The notes beneath the pieces are model-generated. The model was given only the letters and a program-made list of their open reading frames with translations. It was not told the DNA's origin and made no database searches. A stretch of DNA of 64,000 bases, from positions 1,718,001 to 1,782,000 of the forward strand of contig NZ_CP064689.1 in NCBI RefSeq assembly GCF_023100945.1, given 5' to 3'. The position numbers were made by a program, and so were the translations under genes. This DNA comes from Bradyrhizobium sp. 200. GTDB taxonomy: Bacteria > Pseudomonadota > Alphaproteobacteria > Rhizobiales > Xanthobacteraceae. Position 1 is the first letter of the stretch; every line of letters begins with the position of its first letter. Below are positions 2,357 to 63,061 of the stretch, piece by piece.

Positions 2357-3463
2357 ATGTCTAGTCTTCGCAGAACGCTGACAGCAGCGGCGCTGTCTCT
2401 CGCTACGCTCGCACCGGCCGGTTACGCCGGCGCCGCCGACGTGGCGGTCAAGGCGCTCAAGCCGGTCGCCGAGGTGCCGTTTTTTCTGGTGATTGACAAC
2501 CGCGTGTCGTTCTCGTGGATGCCCAAGGGCACCGATCCCGGCATGTTCTCCGTAAACCCGGACGGCTCGATCAACGGCACCACCGCCAAGCAGGTCTATT
2601 CGTTCACCCACTTCGACGCCTGGGCTTACGGCACCAACTTCTTCAATATCTCGATGTTCAAGTCGGGTCATAACGATCCCGCTTCGCCCTGCGTCGCGCC
2701 CGGCGTCACCATCACGGGCGGCTTGGCAGACTGTGCCGGCGCCACCGAAATCTACGGCCTGTTCCGCTCGACCTTCGGCTTCAACGAGATATTCAACACC
2801 AAGGCCTTCACGATGGGGCCGCTGCGCAACGTGTCGTTCGAAGTCGGTATGGACGCCAACACCGAAAACAACTTCCTGGCGCCCGCCAAGCGTGACGTCG
2901 TCGCCGGTCTGCAATTCGCTTTCGACCTGCCTTACAAGGGCTATGTCAACATCGCCCCGCTGGTATATTGGGAATTCTCCAACCACAACGCGTTCACCCA
3001 GTGCGGCCTGTTCGGCCCCGGCATCCCTGGAACCACCTGCAACTCCGACGGCAACGTCTCGTACCGGCCGACATGGGCGGTCGAGGTCAACTACTACATG
3101 GACCTCGGCTTCCTGCCGCCGAACATGCAGTACTTCTCGATCAGCGGCCGCGCCGGCTGGTATGGACCGAAGGGCGATTCCAACGGCCTGCCTGCGCTTT
3201 CGGGCCCCGGACGGTTCTCGACCGCTTCCAAGACCGAGTTCAACAGCGAACCGATCCGTCTGACCTTCGACGCCAGCAAGGCTTTCATGGGTCCGAAGTA
3301 CTCGCACTTCCTCGATCTCTGGGTCGCGTATCGCTACTGGCAGAACAAGTTCGGCCTCGACCACAATGCGATGCCGGGCGTGTGCACGCTCGCCGCCAAT
3401 GGTCAGAGCACCAACTCCTGCACCGAATCGACCGTCTATGGCGGCGTCACGGTAAAGTTCTAA
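2357..3463 (+). CDS. Outer-membrane beta-barrel protein, possibly Tsx-like nucleoside channel
   Basis: A 368-residue protein with a cleavable signal peptide (MSSLRRTLTAAALSLATLAP, cleavage probably after AGAA). Alternating polar and aromatic strands follow, ending in the terminal phenylalanine usual for outer-membrane barrels (TVYGGVTVKF). Blocks such as FTHFDAWAYGTNFF recall nucleoside-channel (Tsx) family strands, and the gene diverges from a nucleoside-type ABC ATPase. A role as outer-membrane entry for nucleosides therefore fits, but the family call rests on weak resemblance. The ATG at 2357 was chosen over one 63 bases upstream because it starts the signal peptide. A strong terminator hairpin follows. 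Confidence 0.6.
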   Translation: MSSLRRTLTAAALSLATLAPAGYAGAADVAVKALKPVAEVPFFLVIDNRVSFSWMPKGTDPGMFSVNPDGSINGTTAKQVYSFTHFDAWAYGTNFFNISMFKSGHNDPASPCVAPGVTITGGLADCAGATEIYGLFRSTFGFNEIFNTKAFTMGPLRNVSFEVGMDANTENNFLAPAKRDVVAGLQFAFDLPYKGYVNIAPLVYWEFSNHNAFTQCGLFGPGIPGTTCNSDGNVSYRPTWAVEVNYYMDLGFLPPNMQYFSISGRAGWYGPKGDSNGLPALSGPGRFSTASKTEFNSEPIRLTFDASKAFMGPKYSHFLDLWVAYRYWQNKFGLDHNAMPGVCTLAANGQSTNSCTESTVYGGVTVKF

Positions 3464-3493
3464 CCGCCTGGCCGTTCCTCCAGGTGACAAGCG

Positions 3494-3523
3494 ATGGCGC
3501 CGCGATGTTCCCCGCGGCGCCAT
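3494..3523 (+). terminator. Hairpin terminator of the porin-like gene
   Basis: Perfect 11-bp inverted repeat ATGGCGCCGCG / CGCGGCGCCAT with an 8-base loop, followed by TTTCCTT, 31 bases after the porin stop codon. It also lies between convergent genes. Confidence 0.75.
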
Positions 3524-3575
3524 TTCCTTGCGGGCGAACTCCGGGATGATGGTTGGCGGGCCTGCCGCTGCAGGG

Positions 3576-4076
3576 CTACTTGTTCCAGACCCCGGCGTGA
3601 ACCGCCGCGGCTTCGTCCTCAAGCAGCGGGCCGACTACCTCGGTCGCGCGTTGCCCGCTGGCGAACACGTCGCGGCAGGGCAGGTTGAGGGTCGGATTTT
3701 CCGGATGGTTGCCGGTCAATTCCCGCAGCCGGTGTTCGCTCAGGCCATAGACAAGCCGGCCGATGCCGGCCCAGTAGATCGCGCCTGCGCACATCGCGCA
3801 GGGTTCGGCGGACGAATACAGCGTAGCGCTGCGCAGCGTGCCCGGATCGAGCGTGGTGCAGGCCTGCGTCGCCAGCAGACGCTCGGCATGCGCTGTGCCG
3901 TCATGGGAGGGCATGTAGCCGTTCTCGGCTTCCAGCAGCAAATTACCATCCCGGTCGACAAGAACAGCCCCAAAGGGATGGTTGCCGTGGGTCATGGCGC
4001 GGCGCGCGACCTCGAACGACCGCCGCAGGAAATGCGCGTCGCGCTCCGAAGGGCTGAGCGTTGAAAGGTTCGCCAT
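3576..4076 (-). CDS. Nucleoside/guanine deaminase-like CMP-dCMP deaminase family protein
   Basis: A 166-residue zinc hydrolase of the cytidine-deaminase fold. H63-A-E65 supplies the first zinc ligand and the proton-shuttle glutamate, and PCAMC (C93, C96) supplies the other two ligands. The following GAIYWAGI block resembles guanine deaminase (GuaD) more than the tRNA enzyme TadA, so hydrolytic deamination of guanine or a related purine is likely. It follows the polyamine-type ABC operon by 72 bases on the same strand and may be its last gene, releasing ammonia from an imported base. The start at 4076 has a GGAGG site 10 bases upstream; a longer in-frame start at 4136 lacks one. Confidence 0.8.
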   Translation of the reverse strand: MANLSTLSPSERDAHFLRRSFEVARRAMTHGNHPFGAVLVDRDGNLLLEAENGYMPSHDGTAHAERLLATQACTTLDPGTLRSATLYSSAEPCAMCAGAIYWAGIGRLVYGLSEHRLRELTGNHPENPTLNLPCRDVFASGQRATEVVGPLLEDEAAAVHAGVWNK

Positions 4077-4148
4077 CAATGGGTTCCTCCGCGACTCCAC
4101 GCGGCGGTGATGTTCGGGTTGACGATCAGGCGACACATGAAGCAGGTT

Positions 4149-5027
4149 CTACACCATTCCCTTGCCCGCGTCCGACCCGTGACGCCGTTGTCGCGCCTGG
4201 AGCACAAGAATGACGATCAGGGCCGAAAAGATGACGAGAAAGGATACGGCGCTGGTCAACGTTCCAAGCGCATAGATATCCGGCTTCGTCACGGTCGTCG
4301 TCAGGCCCTGCAACTCGAGCGGCAAGGTGTTGACGGATCCGATCGCCTGGCTGGAGCGCGCGAGTTCGTCCCACGACAAGGTAAAGCCGAACAGACCAAT
4401 GCCCACGACGGACGGCAATATGATTGGCAGCACCACATGGCGAAATGTCTGCCATGGTGTTGCACCGAGGTCGCGCGCCGCCTCTTCAAGCCGGCCATCG
4501 AACCGGTTGAAAATCGCAAACATGATCAAAAGGCCAAACGGCAACGTCCAGGTAAGGTGCGCTCCAAGGCCTGAGGTAAAAAGCCCCATTGCCGTCGTCC
4601 AGCCCTCGGCGCCGCTTTTGATGATGAAATCGTCAAGCAACCGGAATTCCAGCGCGATGCCGAGCGAAGTGATGATCGACGGCATGATCAGGCTTGCGAT
4701 GGCGACATAAAACAGGAAGGTCGCGCCGCGGAACGATTTGCGAAAGGCCATGCCCGCCGAAACCGAAAGCACGACCGTCAGGACCATGACGACGAGGCCG
4801 AGCTTGAGCGACCGCTTGAAGGCCGCACCGATGTCGACGATGCCGGCCCCGGCGAACACCTTGCTGAACCAGACCAGCGAAACGCCGTTCATTGGAAAGG
4901 TCAGGCCGCCGTCAGGGCCCTGGAACGAGAGGATGTAGATCGCAATCATCGGCCCATAAAGAAACAGCACATAGGCAGCGAAGAACGCCGCCAGAACATA
5001 AAAGGATCGCGACCGCTTGTCGCCCAT
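4149..5027 (-). CDS. Polyamine-type ABC transporter permease (PotC-like)
   Basis: A 292-residue integral membrane protein with about six helices and the cytoplasmic EAA loop EEAARDLGATPWQTF, which docks on the ATPase. It belongs to the binding-protein-dependent permease family used for spermidine/putrescine and related amines. It starts one base after the stop of the partner permease at 5029-5910, so the two are translated together. The last 20 residues are basic (QARQRRHGSDAGK). The substrate is not shown by sequence; the operon's sigma-54 promoter and neighbouring deaminase suggest a nitrogen-rich compound. Confidence 0.88.
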   Translation of the reverse strand: MGDKRSRSFYVLAAFFAAYVLFLYGPMIAIYILSFQGPDGGLTFPMNGVSLVWFSKVFAGAGIVDIGAAFKRSLKLGLVVMVLTVVLSVSAGMAFRKSFRGATFLFYVAIASLIMPSIITSLGIALEFRLLDDFIIKSGAEGWTTAMGLFTSGLGAHLTWTLPFGLLIMFAIFNRFDGRLEEAARDLGATPWQTFRHVVLPIILPSVVGIGLFGFTLSWDELARSSQAIGSVNTLPLELQGLTTTVTKPDIYALGTLTSAVSFLVIFSALIVILVLQARQRRHGSDAGKGMV

Positions 5028-5028
5028 C

Positions 5029-5910
5029 TCACAGTTCCTTGCGGATATCGACGATCCGCGTCAGCGCTGAAATGATCATGATCGTGATGCCGAGCAGGAT
5101 GACGGCGTTGGCTGCGGCTGCGGGAAATTGCAACGCATTGAGGCGTGCCTCGATGATCTTGCCTGCGGAAGCGATCTGTTGGCCGCCCATCACGCCGATC
5201 GTGACAAAATCACCCATGACGATCGTGATCACGAAAATCGAGCCAATCACGATCCCCGGCTTTGCCAGGGGGATGATGATATTCACGAGGGTCTGCCACC
5301 CGGTGGCTCCGGCATCATAGGCGGCCTCGATCAGCCGCTTGTCGATCCGGATCATCGAGTTGAAGATCGGCACCACCATGAAGAATGTGAAAAGGTGGAC
5401 GAGGGCCAGCACGACAGAGAACTCGGAGAACAGCAGCCATTCCAGCGGCTGCTGGATCAGCCCCGCGTGCTGCAGGCCATTGTTGACCAATCCGTTGCGG
5501 CCGAGAAGCGGAATCCACGCGATCATGCGGATCACATTCGAGGTCCAGAACGGAATGGTGCAAAGCAAGGAGAGTACGATCTGCCAGGTTTTGGATCGGA
5601 CGTGGAACGCGAGAAAATAGGCGACCGTGAATCCGATCAGCAGCGTCAGAACCCAGGTCAGCAGGCACAATTTCAGGGTCTTCAGGTAGGTTTTCAGGAT
5701 CGTGCACAGACCGGGCAGTTCGGCGATGCACCCTTCGAATGTATCGGTGTAGCCGCGCAGACTGAGGGCGGGGAGCATTTCATATTCATTGTAGTCCCAC
5801 GCGCTGACGATTGTCACAAATACCAGCGGCAACAGAAAAAACAGCGCGAAGATCAGCATCATCGGCGCGGCTTGAAGCCACGCGACAAGGGATTTGCGGT
5901 CTTGAAGCAT
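5029..5910 (-). CDS. Polyamine-type ABC transporter permease (PotB-like)
   Basis: About 293 residues, six predicted helices, with a long periplasmic loop after the first (YEMLPALSLRGYTDTF) and the EAA loop IEAAYDAGATGWQTL. Forms the membrane channel together with the PotC-like partner that begins one base downstream. The start is taken at MLQDRKSLVAWLQAAP (5910); upstream codons in this frame run into the binding-protein gene and read like non-coding sequence. No clear ribosome site precedes 5910, so the start is less certain than the family. Confidence 0.85.
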   Translation of the reverse strand: MLQDRKSLVAWLQAAPMMLIFALFFLLPLVFVTIVSAWDYNEYEMLPALSLRGYTDTFEGCIAELPGLCTILKTYLKTLKLCLLTWVLTLLIGFTVAYFLAFHVRSKTWQIVLSLLCTIPFWTSNVIRMIAWIPLLGRNGLVNNGLQHAGLIQQPLEWLLFSEFSVVLALVHLFTFFMVVPIFNSMIRIDKRLIEAAYDAGATGWQTLVNIIIPLAKPGIVIGSIFVITIVMGDFVTIGVMGGQQIASAGKIIEARLNALQFPAAAANAVILLGITIMIISALTRIVDIRKEL

Positions 5911-58846: not shown

Positions 58847-59246
58847 ATCAGGCGCGGAATTCGTAGGGTGGGTAAAGCCAACGCGTCGCGCGAACGCGCG
58901 CCCGATGACAGGCTCCGCGTGCCCACCATTTGCAAAGACAGTATGCCGAGAGGTGGTGGGCACGGCGCAAAGCGCCTTTGCCCACCCGACAATCCCGTTA
59001 ATACGCGAGCCTCAAACCCACGCCGCCGTGGAGCCCTGGTTGCCGGTGACAGGCACGATCGTGCCGTCGTCGGTCGGTATCGCCCTTTACCCGCTGCCAT
59101 AGCCGCCAGAAATGCGTTCAATGCGATGGACATAAAAATCTGGAGCCGCCACACTCAATTTGGCCGCAGTGTCATCCCGTCCCTGAATCCGTGCCAGATT
59201 GTCCGTGAAGCCATTAGCCCCATCACATTCTGTTCTGTCCGATTCG
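58847..59246. other. Intergenic region after the VOC operon
   Basis: 400 bases holding the nested repeat at 58863-58990 and, beyond it, no recognisable gene. Its right part (59100-59246) should hold the promoter of the mannosyltransferase-like gene; no clear -35/-10 pair was seen. Confidence 0.5.
58863..58990. repeat. Nested inverted repeat, dispersed element
   Basis: Outer arms GTAGGGTGGGTAAAGCC (58863-58879) and GCCTTTGCCCACCC (58974-58987) pair imperfectly; inner arms CGTGCCCACCA (58918-58928) and TGGTGGGCACG (58954-58964) pair perfectly. It resembles the GTAGGGTGGGCAAAG element I remember from Bradyrhizobium intergenic DNA. It follows the VOC operon. Confidence 0.65.
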
Positions 59247-60509
59247 ATGATGCGCACGGGCATCATCGCAGCAGTGCTCTTTGTTCTCGCGCATTTCGCG
59301 ATGCTGATCGGGGTCACCGCGCCAGAGAAATTCTACTTCGACGAGGTGCATTACGTGCCGGCGGCGCGGCAAATGCTCGAGCCGGTGATGCCGCAGCCGA
59401 TGCTCAATCCGATGCATCCGCCGCTTGCAAAGCAGTTCATCGCGCTGTCGATCCATTCGTTAGGTGACGGGCCGCTGGGCTGGCGCTATCCGGGCGTACT
59501 GTTCGGATCGCTCGCCATCGTCGCGGTGTATCTGTGCGGCCTGGCGCTGTTCGCGGCCCAGGGGCCGGCCATCGCGGCGAGCCTGCTCGCATTTTTCAAC
59601 CAGATGCTGTTCGTGCAATCGCGGATCGCGATGCTGGATATCTTTGCGCTCACCTTCAGCCTGTTTGCCATCGCGGCGTTCATGCACGGCTTTCGAAGAC
59701 AGCGGCCGCATTTGTGGTTCGCGCTTGCCGGGACCGGCCTCGGCCTGTCGATCGCCTGCAAATGGAGCGGGCTGTTCGTGCTCGCGGTCTGCATCGTCAT
59801 CGTCGCCGTGATCCGCCTGATGCAAAGCTGGCGCACCCAGTTCGCCGACGCCCGGCCCGACGACTGGTACCGGCCCGATCTTTGGCCCGGCTTCAAGACC
59901 TGGCACTTTGCGGCGTGCTTCTTTCTGATTCCGGCCGCCGTCTATCTTGCGACGTTCATTCCGCTGTACGGATTTTCCATTCCAAATATCCTGGAAGCGC
60001 AGCGGCGGATCTTCAGCGATAACACCACGACCGCGATCGCGGGCCACACCTACATGAGTTCGTGGCCGTCCTGGCCGTTCCTGGTGCGCCCGGTCTGGTA
60101 TCTCTTCGACAAGATCGGCGATGACCGGATCGCCGCCGTCGTCTTTCTCGGCAACCCCTTGATCCTGTGGCCGGCGCTGATTGCGGTCACGGTCTGCCTG
60201 CGCGACTGGATCGTGACGCGGCGGGTGGATGCATTCCTGGTGCTGGCGTTCTATTTCGGTCCCTATCTCGCCTGGGCTCTGCTGCCGCGAACGCTGGGCT
60301 TCATCTATTACTACTTGCCCGCCGCGACCACGGCGAGCTTTGCGCTGGTCTATGCCTTAAGACGCGGCAGCACGCCTGGCTGGCTGCTCTGGGCCTATGT
60401 TGCGATCGGCTTTACAGGCTTCGCCGTAATGTTGCCGATATCGGCCGCGTTCATAGGCACTTCGATGGCGACGTTCAGCCGCCTGATGATCTTCCAGAAC
60501 TGGATTTGA
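59247..60509 (+). CDS. Protein O-mannosyltransferase-like (PMT/GT39-type) membrane glycosyltransferase
   Basis: About 420 residues with 9-11 membrane helices. The first periplasmic loop carries an acidic pair in FYFDEVHYVPAARQML and NPMHPPLAKQFIALS, the pattern of polyprenyl-phosphate-mannose-dependent protein mannosyltransferases. It would transfer a lipid-linked sugar to protein or lipid at the periplasmic face. The start is taken at ATG 59247, which opens the first helix; a TTG at 59199 would add 16 residues. The gene stands alone. Confidence 0.78.
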   Translation: MMRTGIIAAVLFVLAHFAMLIGVTAPEKFYFDEVHYVPAARQMLEPVMPQPMLNPMHPPLAKQFIALSIHSLGDGPLGWRYPGVLFGSLAIVAVYLCGLALFAAQGPAIAASLLAFFNQMLFVQSRIAMLDIFALTFSLFAIAAFMHGFRRQRPHLWFALAGTGLGLSIACKWSGLFVLAVCIVIVAVIRLMQSWRTQFADARPDDWYRPDLWPGFKTWHFAACFFLIPAAVYLATFIPLYGFSIPNILEAQRRIFSDNTTTAIAGHTYMSSWPSWPFLVRPVWYLFDKIGDDRIAAVVFLGNPLILWPALIAVTVCLRDWIVTRRVDAFLVLAFYFGPYLAWALLPRTLGFIYYYLPAATTASFALVYALRRGSTPGWLLWAYVAIGFTGFAVMLPISAAFIGTSMATFSRLMIFQNWI

Positions 60510-60610: not shown

Positions 60611-62242
60611 ATGTGGGCCTTCTTTGAACGTCTGCTCGATTCATCGATGTTCGCACCACACGGAATATGCCTGCTGTGGGAACCGCAGTTGATCTGGCTC
60701 CACGTCGCTTCGGATATCGTCATTGCCTCCGCCTATTTTTCGATTCCCGTGGCGCTGTCGATCTTCGTCTCGAAGCGCCGCGATGTCGATTTCGGATGGG
60801 TGTTCTGGGCGTTCGCGCTGTTCATCATGGCGTGCGGCGTCGGCCACGTGATGTCGATCGTCACGCTTTGGTATCCGATCTACGGCATCGAAGGCCTCGT
60901 CAAGGCGATGACGGCTGCGGCGTCGATCGTGACGGCGGCGATGCTGTGGCCGCTGTTGCCGAAGGTGCTCGCGCTGCCCTCGCCATCGCAGCTTCGTGCG
61001 GCCGAAGTCGCGCTCGCGCAGGAAGGCATGTACCGGCGCGAGGCCGAGGACATGCTTCGGCAGTCGCAGAAGATGGAAGCGATCGGGCAACTGACGGGCG
61101 GCGTGGCGCACGATTTCAACAACCTGCTTACGATCATCAGCGGCAATCTCGAGATTGCCGATCGCTGCTTGCACTCGTGGAGCGACGCCACGCGTGAACG
61201 ATTGACGCGTGTGATCGCCAATGCCGCAAACGGCGCACAGCGCGCGGCGATGTTGACGCAGCGCCTGCTGGCGTTTGCGCGCCGGCAACCGCTCGATCCC
61301 AAACGGACCAGCGTCAATCAGCAAATCGCCGGCATGTCGGATTTTTTCAGGCGGACGCTCGGCGAGACCGTCGATCTCGAAGTCGTCGGCGGCACCGATC
61401 TCTGGCAGGTCGAGGTCGATCCGAGCCAGCTCGAAGCGGCGATTCTCAATCTGGTCGTGAACGCCAAGGACGCCATGAATGCCAAGGATGCCAAAATCTC
61501 GGGCGCGATGGCCAACAGCGGCAGATTGAGGATCGAAACCAGCAACGTTTCCGTCGACGAGGGCTTTCGGCAACAGAACGCGGGCGTGCCGGCGGGGGAA
61601 TATGTATTGATCGCGGTGAGCGATACCGGCTCCGGAATGCCGCGGGAAGTTCAGGAGAAAGCGTTCGATCCGTTTTTTACGACCAAGCAACCGGGGCAGG
61701 GCACCGGCCTCGGATTGAGCCAGGTCTACGGCTTCGTCAAGCAATCCGGCGGCGAGATCAAGATATACAGCGAGGTCGGGCAGGGAACGACAATCAGGAT
61801 CTACCTGCCCCGCGCCGCTGTCGCCCCCGAGATCGCAGGGCAGGGCGAGGCGCCCCTGGTCGGCAGTCTCGGGAGCGAGACCGTCCTGGTGGTCGAGGAC
61901 GAATGCGATGTGAGGTCGTATCTGGTCGAGACGCTGAAGGACCTGAACTACCGGGTTCGCGAGGCGGCGAACGGCGCGGCCGCGCTGGCGTTGTTCGACG
62001 CCAATCCGTTCCGGATCGATCTGCTGCTGACCGACATCGTGATGCCTGGCCTGAACGGCCGCGAACTGGCCGATCAACTGCATCATCGCCAAACCGGCCT
62101 GAGAGTCCTGTTCATGACCGGCTATTCGCGGGATGCGATCGTGCATCAGGGGCGGCTGGATCCCGGGGTGTCGCTGCTGCAGAAGCCCGTCACCCAGGCG
62201 TTGCTGGCATCAAAGATCAGGGAAATTCTCGACAAGGCGTAG
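60611..62242 (+). CDS. Hybrid histidine kinase with ethylene-receptor-like N-terminal domain
   Basis: 543 residues. Three membrane helices (about 26-55, 62-87, 96-120) carry the ethylene-binding-domain pattern of plant ETR1: SDIVIASAYFSIP with D35, FIMACGVGH with C75 and H79 (the copper ligands of ETR1 are in CGATH), then VKAMTAAASIVTAAMLWPLLP. The HisKA site is H167 (GGVAHDFNNLL), followed by an ATPase domain (NLVVNAKDAM, SDTGSGMP, GQGTGLGLSQ) and a receiver with D475 (LLTDIVMPGLNG), E429-D430 and K525. No separate response regulator adjoins. AAAGGAA precedes the ATG. Confidence 0.88.
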   Translation: MWAFFERLLDSSMFAPHGICLLWEPQLIWLHVASDIVIASAYFSIPVALSIFVSKRRDVDFGWVFWAFALFIMACGVGHVMSIVTLWYPIYGIEGLVKAMTAAASIVTAAMLWPLLPKVLALPSPSQLRAAEVALAQEGMYRREAEDMLRQSQKMEAIGQLTGGVAHDFNNLLTIISGNLEIADRCLHSWSDATRERLTRVIANAANGAQRAAMLTQRLLAFARRQPLDPKRTSVNQQIAGMSDFFRRTLGETVDLEVVGGTDLWQVEVDPSQLEAAILNLVVNAKDAMNAKDAKISGAMANSGRLRIETSNVSVDEGFRQQNAGVPAGEYVLIAVSDTGSGMPREVQEKAFDPFFTTKQPGQGTGLGLSQVYGFVKQSGGEIKIYSEVGQGTTIRIYLPRAAVAPEIAGQGEAPLVGSLGSETVLVVEDECDVRSYLVETLKDLNYRVREAANGAAALALFDANPFRIDLLLTDIVMPGLNGRELADQLHHRQTGLRVLFMTGYSRDAIVHQGRLDPGVSLLQKPVTQALLASKIREILDKA

Positions 62243-62296: not shown

Positions 62297-62326
62297 AATC
62301 CGCCTGCCGCAAGCGGCAGGCGGATT
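62297..62326 (-). terminator. Terminator of the OmpA-family gene
   Basis: Perfect 14-bp inverted repeat (AATCCGCCTGCCGC / GCGGCAGGCGGATT) with a two-base centre. On the minus strand it is followed by TTTTCATTT, 14 bases after the OmpA-family stop. It may also stop the convergent kinase transcript. Confidence 0.85.
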
Positions 62327-62340
62327 GGCTTTCCAAGGCC

Positions 62341-62973
62341 TTACTTTGACGCGGTCTTGGTGTCCATGTTGACGACTTGAACGCGGCGGTTGATCGGGTC
62401 CATCGGCGCATTCGGATCCTTCGGCTTGGTCTTGCCGTAACCAACGGTCACGAGATTGGAACCGGTGATGCCGTACTTCTCGGTCAGGTACTTCTTGATC
62501 GTATCGGCGCGGCGCTCGGAAAGATCCTGGTTATACGCCTCGCCGCCGATCGCGTCGGTATGACCGGCAACCACGAAGGTCGAACCCTTCAGGCTCGTAT
62601 CGGAGAGTGCCTTGCCGAGCTCCTGTACGGCGGTCACCGAATTCTTGCTGATGTCGGCCGAATTGTAGTCGAACTGGATTTCGAGATCGATCTTCGGCTT
62701 GGTCGCGGCGAGTTCCGCAATCTCCTGGCGCTCGCCGAGCGACAGCGACCGCGTCTTGCGGTTGCGCAGTGTGTTGACGAAGCTGGTTTCCTTGGCCTGC
62801 ACGGCGGCGTCCACCGGCTGCTGCGGGCCGGTCGAAAGGCCGCGGGTTACGCCCGGCTTCGGCTTGAGGGCGTCCAGGATTTTGTCGGCCGAGACGGTGT
62901 CGCCGGCGACAGCGAGACCCGCCGTCATCGACAGCGCGGCACTGATAGTCATGATCGAAAGGTAGCGGCTCAT
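62341..62973 (-). CDS. OmpA-family protein (peptidoglycan-binding C-terminal domain)
   Basis: 210 residues. Signal peptide (MSRYLSIMTISAALSMTAGL, cleavage near AVAG), a spacer of about 80 residues (KILDALKPKPGVTRGLSTGP), then an OmpA/MotB domain with LEIQFDYNSADISKNSVTA, VVAGHTDAIGGEAYNQDLSE and RRADTIKKYL. There is no beta-barrel and no lipobox cysteine, so it is a soluble periplasmic or loosely attached peptidoglycan binder. GAGGAT precedes the ATG at 62973. A CRP-like palindrome lies about 90 bases upstream. Confidence 0.9.
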   Translation of the reverse strand: MSRYLSIMTISAALSMTAGLAVAGDTVSADKILDALKPKPGVTRGLSTGPQQPVDAAVQAKETSFVNTLRNRKTRSLSLGERQEIAELAATKPKIDLEIQFDYNSADISKNSVTAVQELGKALSDTSLKGSTFVVAGHTDAIGGEAYNQDLSERRADTIKKYLTEKYGITGSNLVTVGYGKTKPKDPNAPMDPINRRVQVVNMDTKTASK

Positions 62974-63061
62974 TGTCTTAATCCTCACTGTTAACGCCCT
63001 GCAAAGCTGGCGTGCATGACGTTTTGATGCTGGGAGCATAGAATCGGTTCAAGTCGACGAA

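Follow-up and report, generated by a model that had tools for sequence, protein, structure and literature searches.

Can Bradyrhizobium perceive the plant hormone ethylene, and through which kind of output would it respond? The question is raised by a gene of Bradyrhizobium sp. 200 that lies in a stretch of 64,000 nucleotides (contig NZ_CP064689.1, positions 1,718,001 to 1,782,000; the window in what follows). Ethylene regulates nodulation, and rhizobia lower plant ethylene by ACC deaminase or rhizobitoxine (PMC6304460); a true receptor would mean that the bacterium reads the hormone as well. We consider it very probable that the gene encodes an ethylene-binding receptor kinase of the inner membrane, of the ETR1/SynEtr1/AzoEtr1 kind, while the direction of its ethylene response and its output are much less certain than this identity. 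Domains, residues, conservation, selection and synteny were computed; copper, ethylene, response direction, partner and output we infer.

The earlier note on this DNA had described an ETR1-like ethylene-binding domain (EBD) of three N-terminal helices, with D35, C75 and H79 as key residues, followed by a complete hybrid kinase with receiver. This description holds in all its parts. The ETR1_N profile (PF25487) matches residues 27-122 with E=1.7e-38 (131.2 bits, cut-off 27; Pfam), structure prediction gives the three helices, the three residues are found at the numbers assigned to them, and HisKA, HATPase_c and Response_reg each lie above their own Pfam cut-off (Table 1). The EBD match is the only one in the genome. 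Eight residues were followed throughout, namely D35, Y42, I45, P46, I72, C75, H79 and K98, and the window receptor has all of them. The first seven are the equivalents of ETR1 D25, Y32, I35, P36, I62, C65 and H69, and we take Y32 to be, like the other six, required for ethylene binding. For C65, H69, I35, P36 and I62 this requirement is given in PMC6586836 and for D25 in PMC11819568. The ETR1 copper site consists of C65 and H69 with infrequent contact to D25 (PMC6586836), and an Asp to Asn exchange in the sensor domain lowers affinity about 100-fold (PMC13012798). The window receptor resembles plant ETR1 in its helix 2 Cys and His ligands, four residues apart, its helix 1 Asp and its helix 3 Lys (PMC6586836, PMC13012798), but differs from it in lacking a GAF domain match.

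Table 1. Features of the receptor gene, its surroundings in the window and the ATPase-less orthologues (residue numbers refer to the respective protein)
Feature	Location	Strand	Basis and remarks
PMT-family glycosyltransferase, upstream neighbour	59199..60509	+	Pfam
Hybrid histidine kinase with N-terminal EBD	60611..62242	+	Open reading frame; 543 aa, ATG start
Transmembrane helix 1, residues 25-55	60683..60775	+	AlphaFold; holds D35, Y42, I45, P46
Transmembrane helix 2, residues 63-87	60797..60871	+	AlphaFold; holds I72 and the presumed Cu(I) ligands C75 and H79
Codon of Cys75, equivalent of ETR1 C65	60833..60835	+	Alignment; PMC6586836
Codon of His79, equivalent of ETR1 H69 and AzoEtr1 H79	60845..60847	+	Alignment; PMC11819568
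Transmembrane helix 3, residues 91-121	60881..60973	+	AlphaFold; K98 equivalent to ETR1 K91 and AzoEtr1 K98 (PMC11819568)
HisKA / DHp domain, residues 159-226	61085..61288	+	Pfam; phospho-acceptor His167 in GGVAHDFNN
HATPase_c catalytic domain, residues 270-402	61418..61816	+	Pfam
Receiver domain (Response_reg), residues 425-536	61883..62218	+	Pfam; presumed phospho-acceptor Asp475 in LLLTDIVMPG
13-pair terminator-like hairpin between receptor and convergent OmpA-family gene	62297..62326	-	Consensus match only; 5 such sites in the window, 1.6 expected
OmpA-family protein, downstream convergent neighbour	62341..63039	-	Pfam
EBD + DHp + receiver, HATPase absent, L086 (B. cenepequi)	3998-5065
EBD + DHp + receiver, HATPase absent, L087 (BRP22)	3998-5062
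EBD + DHp + receiver, HATPase absent, L088 (B. elkanii WSM2783)	3998-5068
EBD + DHp + receiver, HATPase absent, L095 (Leo170)	3998-5062
EBD + DHp + receiver, HATPase absent, L100 (G081)	2928-4001

With H167 in HisKA, HATPase_c, and D475 in the receiver, the predicted output is that of a histidine kinase, as in the characterized bacterial members. No NCBIfam family among the best 25 of 112 reaches its cut-off with the window receptor. Since the hybrid-kinase subfamily PRK13557 leads below threshold (389 bits against a cut-off of 631) and CckA models come next, the kinase part is of a CckA-like hybrid kind with no named equivalog; the most similar paralogues that the same genome encodes share 50-53% identity with it.

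The most informative comparison is with AzoEtr1 of Azospirillum brasilense Sp7, the nearest of the characterized relatives compared. A tblastn search of the EBD against plasmids returned 19 records, seven of them from Azospirillum. The Sp7 plasmid locus carries a 525-aa open reading frame with an overlapping receiver frame, and because length and arrangement are those given in PMC11819568 it was taken to be AzoEtr1. Its EBD aligns with that of the window receptor without a gap (68/128 identical), and all eight checked residues are the same and carry the same numbers, while the kinase parts are 37% identical over 215 aligned residues. According to PMC11819568, residues 1-130 of AzoEtr1 bind ethylene saturably in yeast, A. 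brasilense cells bind ethylene but show little or no binding after disruption of the gene, the disruption alters biofilm and root colonization, and the protein responds to ethylene at low doses. The window gene hence most likely encodes a genuine Cu(I)/ethylene receptor, though one of a known kind, because its EBD aligns gaplessly, with the same residues, to one for which ethylene binding has been shown. The suggestion that an alphaproteobacterium may sense ethylene gains support by this analogy. The accompanying statement that the domain occurs in plants and cyanobacteria is out of date, as PMC11819568 gives direct evidence of ethylene binding in an alphaproteobacterium and its introduction adds a fungus for which direct evidence exists. 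According to PMC7700396 and PMC11819568, the domain is present in many proteobacteria; together with AzoEtr1 itself, these reports reduce the novelty of the window receptor.

The two alphaproteobacterial proteins are not built alike. In AzoEtr1 a PAS domain precedes the kinase, and the response regulator is encoded by a separate, overlapping gene (PMC11819568), whereas the window receptor has a fused receiver and no PAS match. SynEtr1 of Synechocystis is likewise a bacterial ethylene receptor with histidine kinase activity and phosphorelay signalling, but it is a light receptor too (PMC11819568), and in the window receptor Pfam detected no light-sensing domain. Pfam detects neither PAS nor GAF between helix 3 and HisKA. 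In the full-length AlphaFold model, which is modest in quality (pLDDT 72.1, pTM 0.40), a helix spanning residues 91-120 is followed from residue 125 by a long helix up to 189 that contains H167, so that the sensor appears to be joined to the kinase with no PAS or GAF domain in between. As the sole EBD protein found in its genome, and with neither domain between sensor and DHp helices, the window receptor would be a convenient model for the coupling of ethylene binding to a kinase.

The EBD alone is predicted as three long helices (mean pLDDT 82.7, pTM 0.64). A sequence search of the PDB found no solved structure of an ethylene-binding domain, and Foldseek against the PDB gave no match at E <= 0.001. 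This agrees with the 2026 review PMC13012798, in whose account the sensor domain is described by models, none of which fully matches EPR data. According to the same account, the EPR distances are not fully reproduced by either the AlphaFold or the ab initio model of the ETR1 sensor domain, so that our model says little on exact geometry.

The distribution of the domain was examined at several levels. Among 2420 candidate database proteins, 2060 have an EBD at E <= 0.001. Within the genus it is present in 138 of 195 sampled genomes, leaving 57 with no match, and within the class in 20/289 sampled genomes, corresponding to 18/224 genera. Among named strains, Bradyrhizobium algeriense RST91 has the closest EBD (98%). 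The host itself looks plant-associated, because its genome, a single contig of 9.49 Mb, contains two strong nodA matches as well as ACC deaminase (two acdS matches, the best at 1.6e-176, far above cut-off). The receptor gene is chromosomal; its position is 1.78 Mb, and the nodA copies are found at 6.79 and 7.29 Mb. A tie to nodulation was not seen across the genus, with an EBD in 77/109 nodA-positive and 61/86 other genomes (odds ratio 0.99, Fisher p = 1.0); in this tally 16 weak matches (E 1.2e-6 to 9.4e-4) among the 125 genomes with a NodA match count as nodA-negative, and related genomes are not independent. The window's main EBD family alone gives the same picture (65/109 versus 47/86, p = 0.56), as do genomes with only distant EBDs (12/109 versus 14/86, p = 0.30). 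ACC deaminase is above cut-off in 171/195 sampled genus genomes and, being nearly universal, cannot discriminate.

In a rival reading the domain binds Cu(I), but its natural signal would be copper status or a small olefin or gas other than ethylene; that the EBD does not follow nodA within the genus speaks for it. The same reading could draw on another alphaproteobacterium, in which a stand-alone EBD gene (L027) lies directly downstream of a SCO1/SenC copper-chaperone gene. We nonetheless regard it as improbable, given that AzoEtr1 binds and responds to ethylene at low doses with eight identical residues (PMC11819568), and that conservation among 95 distinct EBD stretches from the fetched loci is 92-94% for D35, Y42, I45 and P46 and 89% for I72, near the values for C75 (94%) and H79 (95%). 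All eight residues are kept in 81 of these 95; together with a mean dN/dS of 0.044 for the EBD in the window clade, this places the ETR1_N match far beyond chance. In the other 14 at least one of the eight positions is altered, some of these stretches being fragments and others distant or degenerate copies, and the presence of the domain is therefore no proof of an active copper site by itself. A ligand-free leftover that merely anchors and pairs a kinase, for which one could cite the broken copies (L046, L090, L101, L103) and some second copies in the genus that have lost ligand residues (such as L102 and L114, where Arg replaces H79), is very improbable for the window receptor. This protein has all eight key residues, and in its clade the EBD (dN/dS 0.044) evolves at about the rate of the receiver (0.052), the ATPase domain being faster (0.113; linker plus HisKA 0.052; Nei-Gojobori, six sequences, 15 pairs).

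For the favoured Cu(I)/ethylene receptor, a mechanism can be sketched. Two chains would pair. In each, C75 and H79 on helix 2 would coordinate a single Cu(I), and D35 on helix 1 would stabilize H79 and form a bridge to K98 on helix 3. Ethylene would bind to the copper within the membrane, and a resulting change in helix 3 could pass through the short helical linker to the DHp helices and lower autophosphorylation on H167. Less phosphate would then reach D475 in the fused receiver and, from there, a phosphotransfer protein and a regulator whose genes are unlinked to that of the receptor. By analogy with AzoEtr1, ethylene from plant or soil would likely change attachment, root colonization and carbon/nitrogen metabolism. 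By Pfam, neither of the two adjoining genes is a response regulator or phosphotransfer protein. A scan for promoters gave no match. Within 4 kb of the receptor, the PMT-family upstream gene is found at 17 and the OmpA-family gene at 16 of 55 named loci, with both at 15. These loci belong to the window clade, the elkanii clade and a third set of strains with MAG kin, which we take to be photosynthetic bradyrhizobia and their MAG relatives. An anti-phage role of the window receptor was also considered and discarded, PADLOC giving only weak matches of receiver type.

The part behind the EBD varies between strains. A domain scan of the 55 named loci gave EBD-HisKA-HATPase-REC in 25, EBD-PAS-HisKA-HATPase-REC in 23 and EBD-HisKA-REC with no HATPase in four; of the remaining loci, L091 has no REC, L046 consists of the EBD with a receiver remnant out of frame, and L090 is split over two frames. 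The 23 PAS-type proteins belong to B. japonicum and allies. In the four compared, the EBD is 74-81% identical to that of the window receptor but the kinase part only 46-48%, and a search around the 23 loci found neither of the window neighbours. The simplest reading of a similar EBD, a divergent kinase and absent neighbours is that the kinase module behind the EBD has probably been exchanged. Judged from these architectures, the kinase behind the EBD is exchanged or trimmed more than once in Bradyrhizobium. Such rebuilt outputs are an interesting lead beyond the earlier note.

The trimmed form occurs in five orthologues of the B. elkanii clade (Table 1), four of which (L086, L087, L088, L095) encode products of 355-357 aa. 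The HATPase has been lost in frame, and Pfam confirms its absence in L086, L088 and L095, the three submitted. All five keep the DHp histidine, with a few preceding residues missing, and none is among the sequences with an altered copper-site residue. The upstream neighbour of the window receptor recurs next to each of L086, L087, L088 and L095 and the downstream neighbour next to three of these, and all five orthologues cluster together in the EBD tree (SH-aLRT 96, in a quick tree of few columns). Their dN/dS is low (EBD 0.058, DHp 0.064, receiver 0.126; 10 pairs), a sign of purifying selection, which argues against pseudogenes. The ATPase-less orthologue is the only EBD match in genomes G037, G073, G159 and G081, whereas G144 has a second, degenerate EBD. 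A search for the elkanii-type protein in 60 relatives of G037 gave four matches at 1e-70, full length in G037 itself only; this is a weak result, as only 34 first-look candidates were scored in most large genomes, so that G019 and other genomes known to have an EBD escaped the search, and as the elkanii clade was not at the centre of the sample.

By its sequence, a receptor of this type cannot autophosphorylate by itself, which suggests an output that is either partnered or kinase-independent. A wider proposal, tentative and in our estimate somewhat more likely to fail than to hold, is that the Bradyrhizobium EBD is a conserved sensor whose output has been repeatedly rebuilt, and that the elkanii clade keeps an ATPase-less ethylene receptor acting through a partner kinase or with no kinase activity. 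If true, this would be a bacterial parallel to the plant receptors, whose main signalling route, in contrast to the histidine kinase output predicted for the window receptor, is independent of histidine kinase activity (PMC11819568). In the open-access literature, nothing on an ATPase-less EBD receptor was found by title or abstract. The orthologue offers a natural comparison for the window receptor.

Several other rearrangements accompany these forms. Receptor genes are broken at L046 (4001-4717), L103, L090 and L101, where the kinase part is lost, cut short or out of frame; such copies and the 57/195 genus genomes with no match indicate that the receptor gene is dispensable. Second EBD copies in two Bradyrhizobium genomes (L102, 2402-2956; L114, minus strand, open frame 2823-4625 of the reverse complement) form a long branch of their own and have a degenerate site, with Y42 replaced by Phe, I45 by Thr and P46 by Ala in addition to the loss of H79. 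In the split receptors of L027 (826-3290; just downstream of the SCO1/SenC gene), L025 (1423-3283) and L117 (543-1384), a stand-alone EBD gene (138 aa in L025, 140 aa in L027) runs into the beginning of a histidine kinase gene that is separate from it; the annotation of an Acaryochloris plasmid shows a similar overlap.

A further conserved element precedes helix 1. The PHGxC motif (P16, H17, G18, C20; residues 16-20, window positions 60656-60670) is conserved in 92-95% of the 95 stretches, about as well as the copper ligands. In an ETR1 model, residues 4 and 6 of the N-terminus form disulfides (PMC6586836), and the motif could possibly serve as a dimer bond or as a site of copper delivery.
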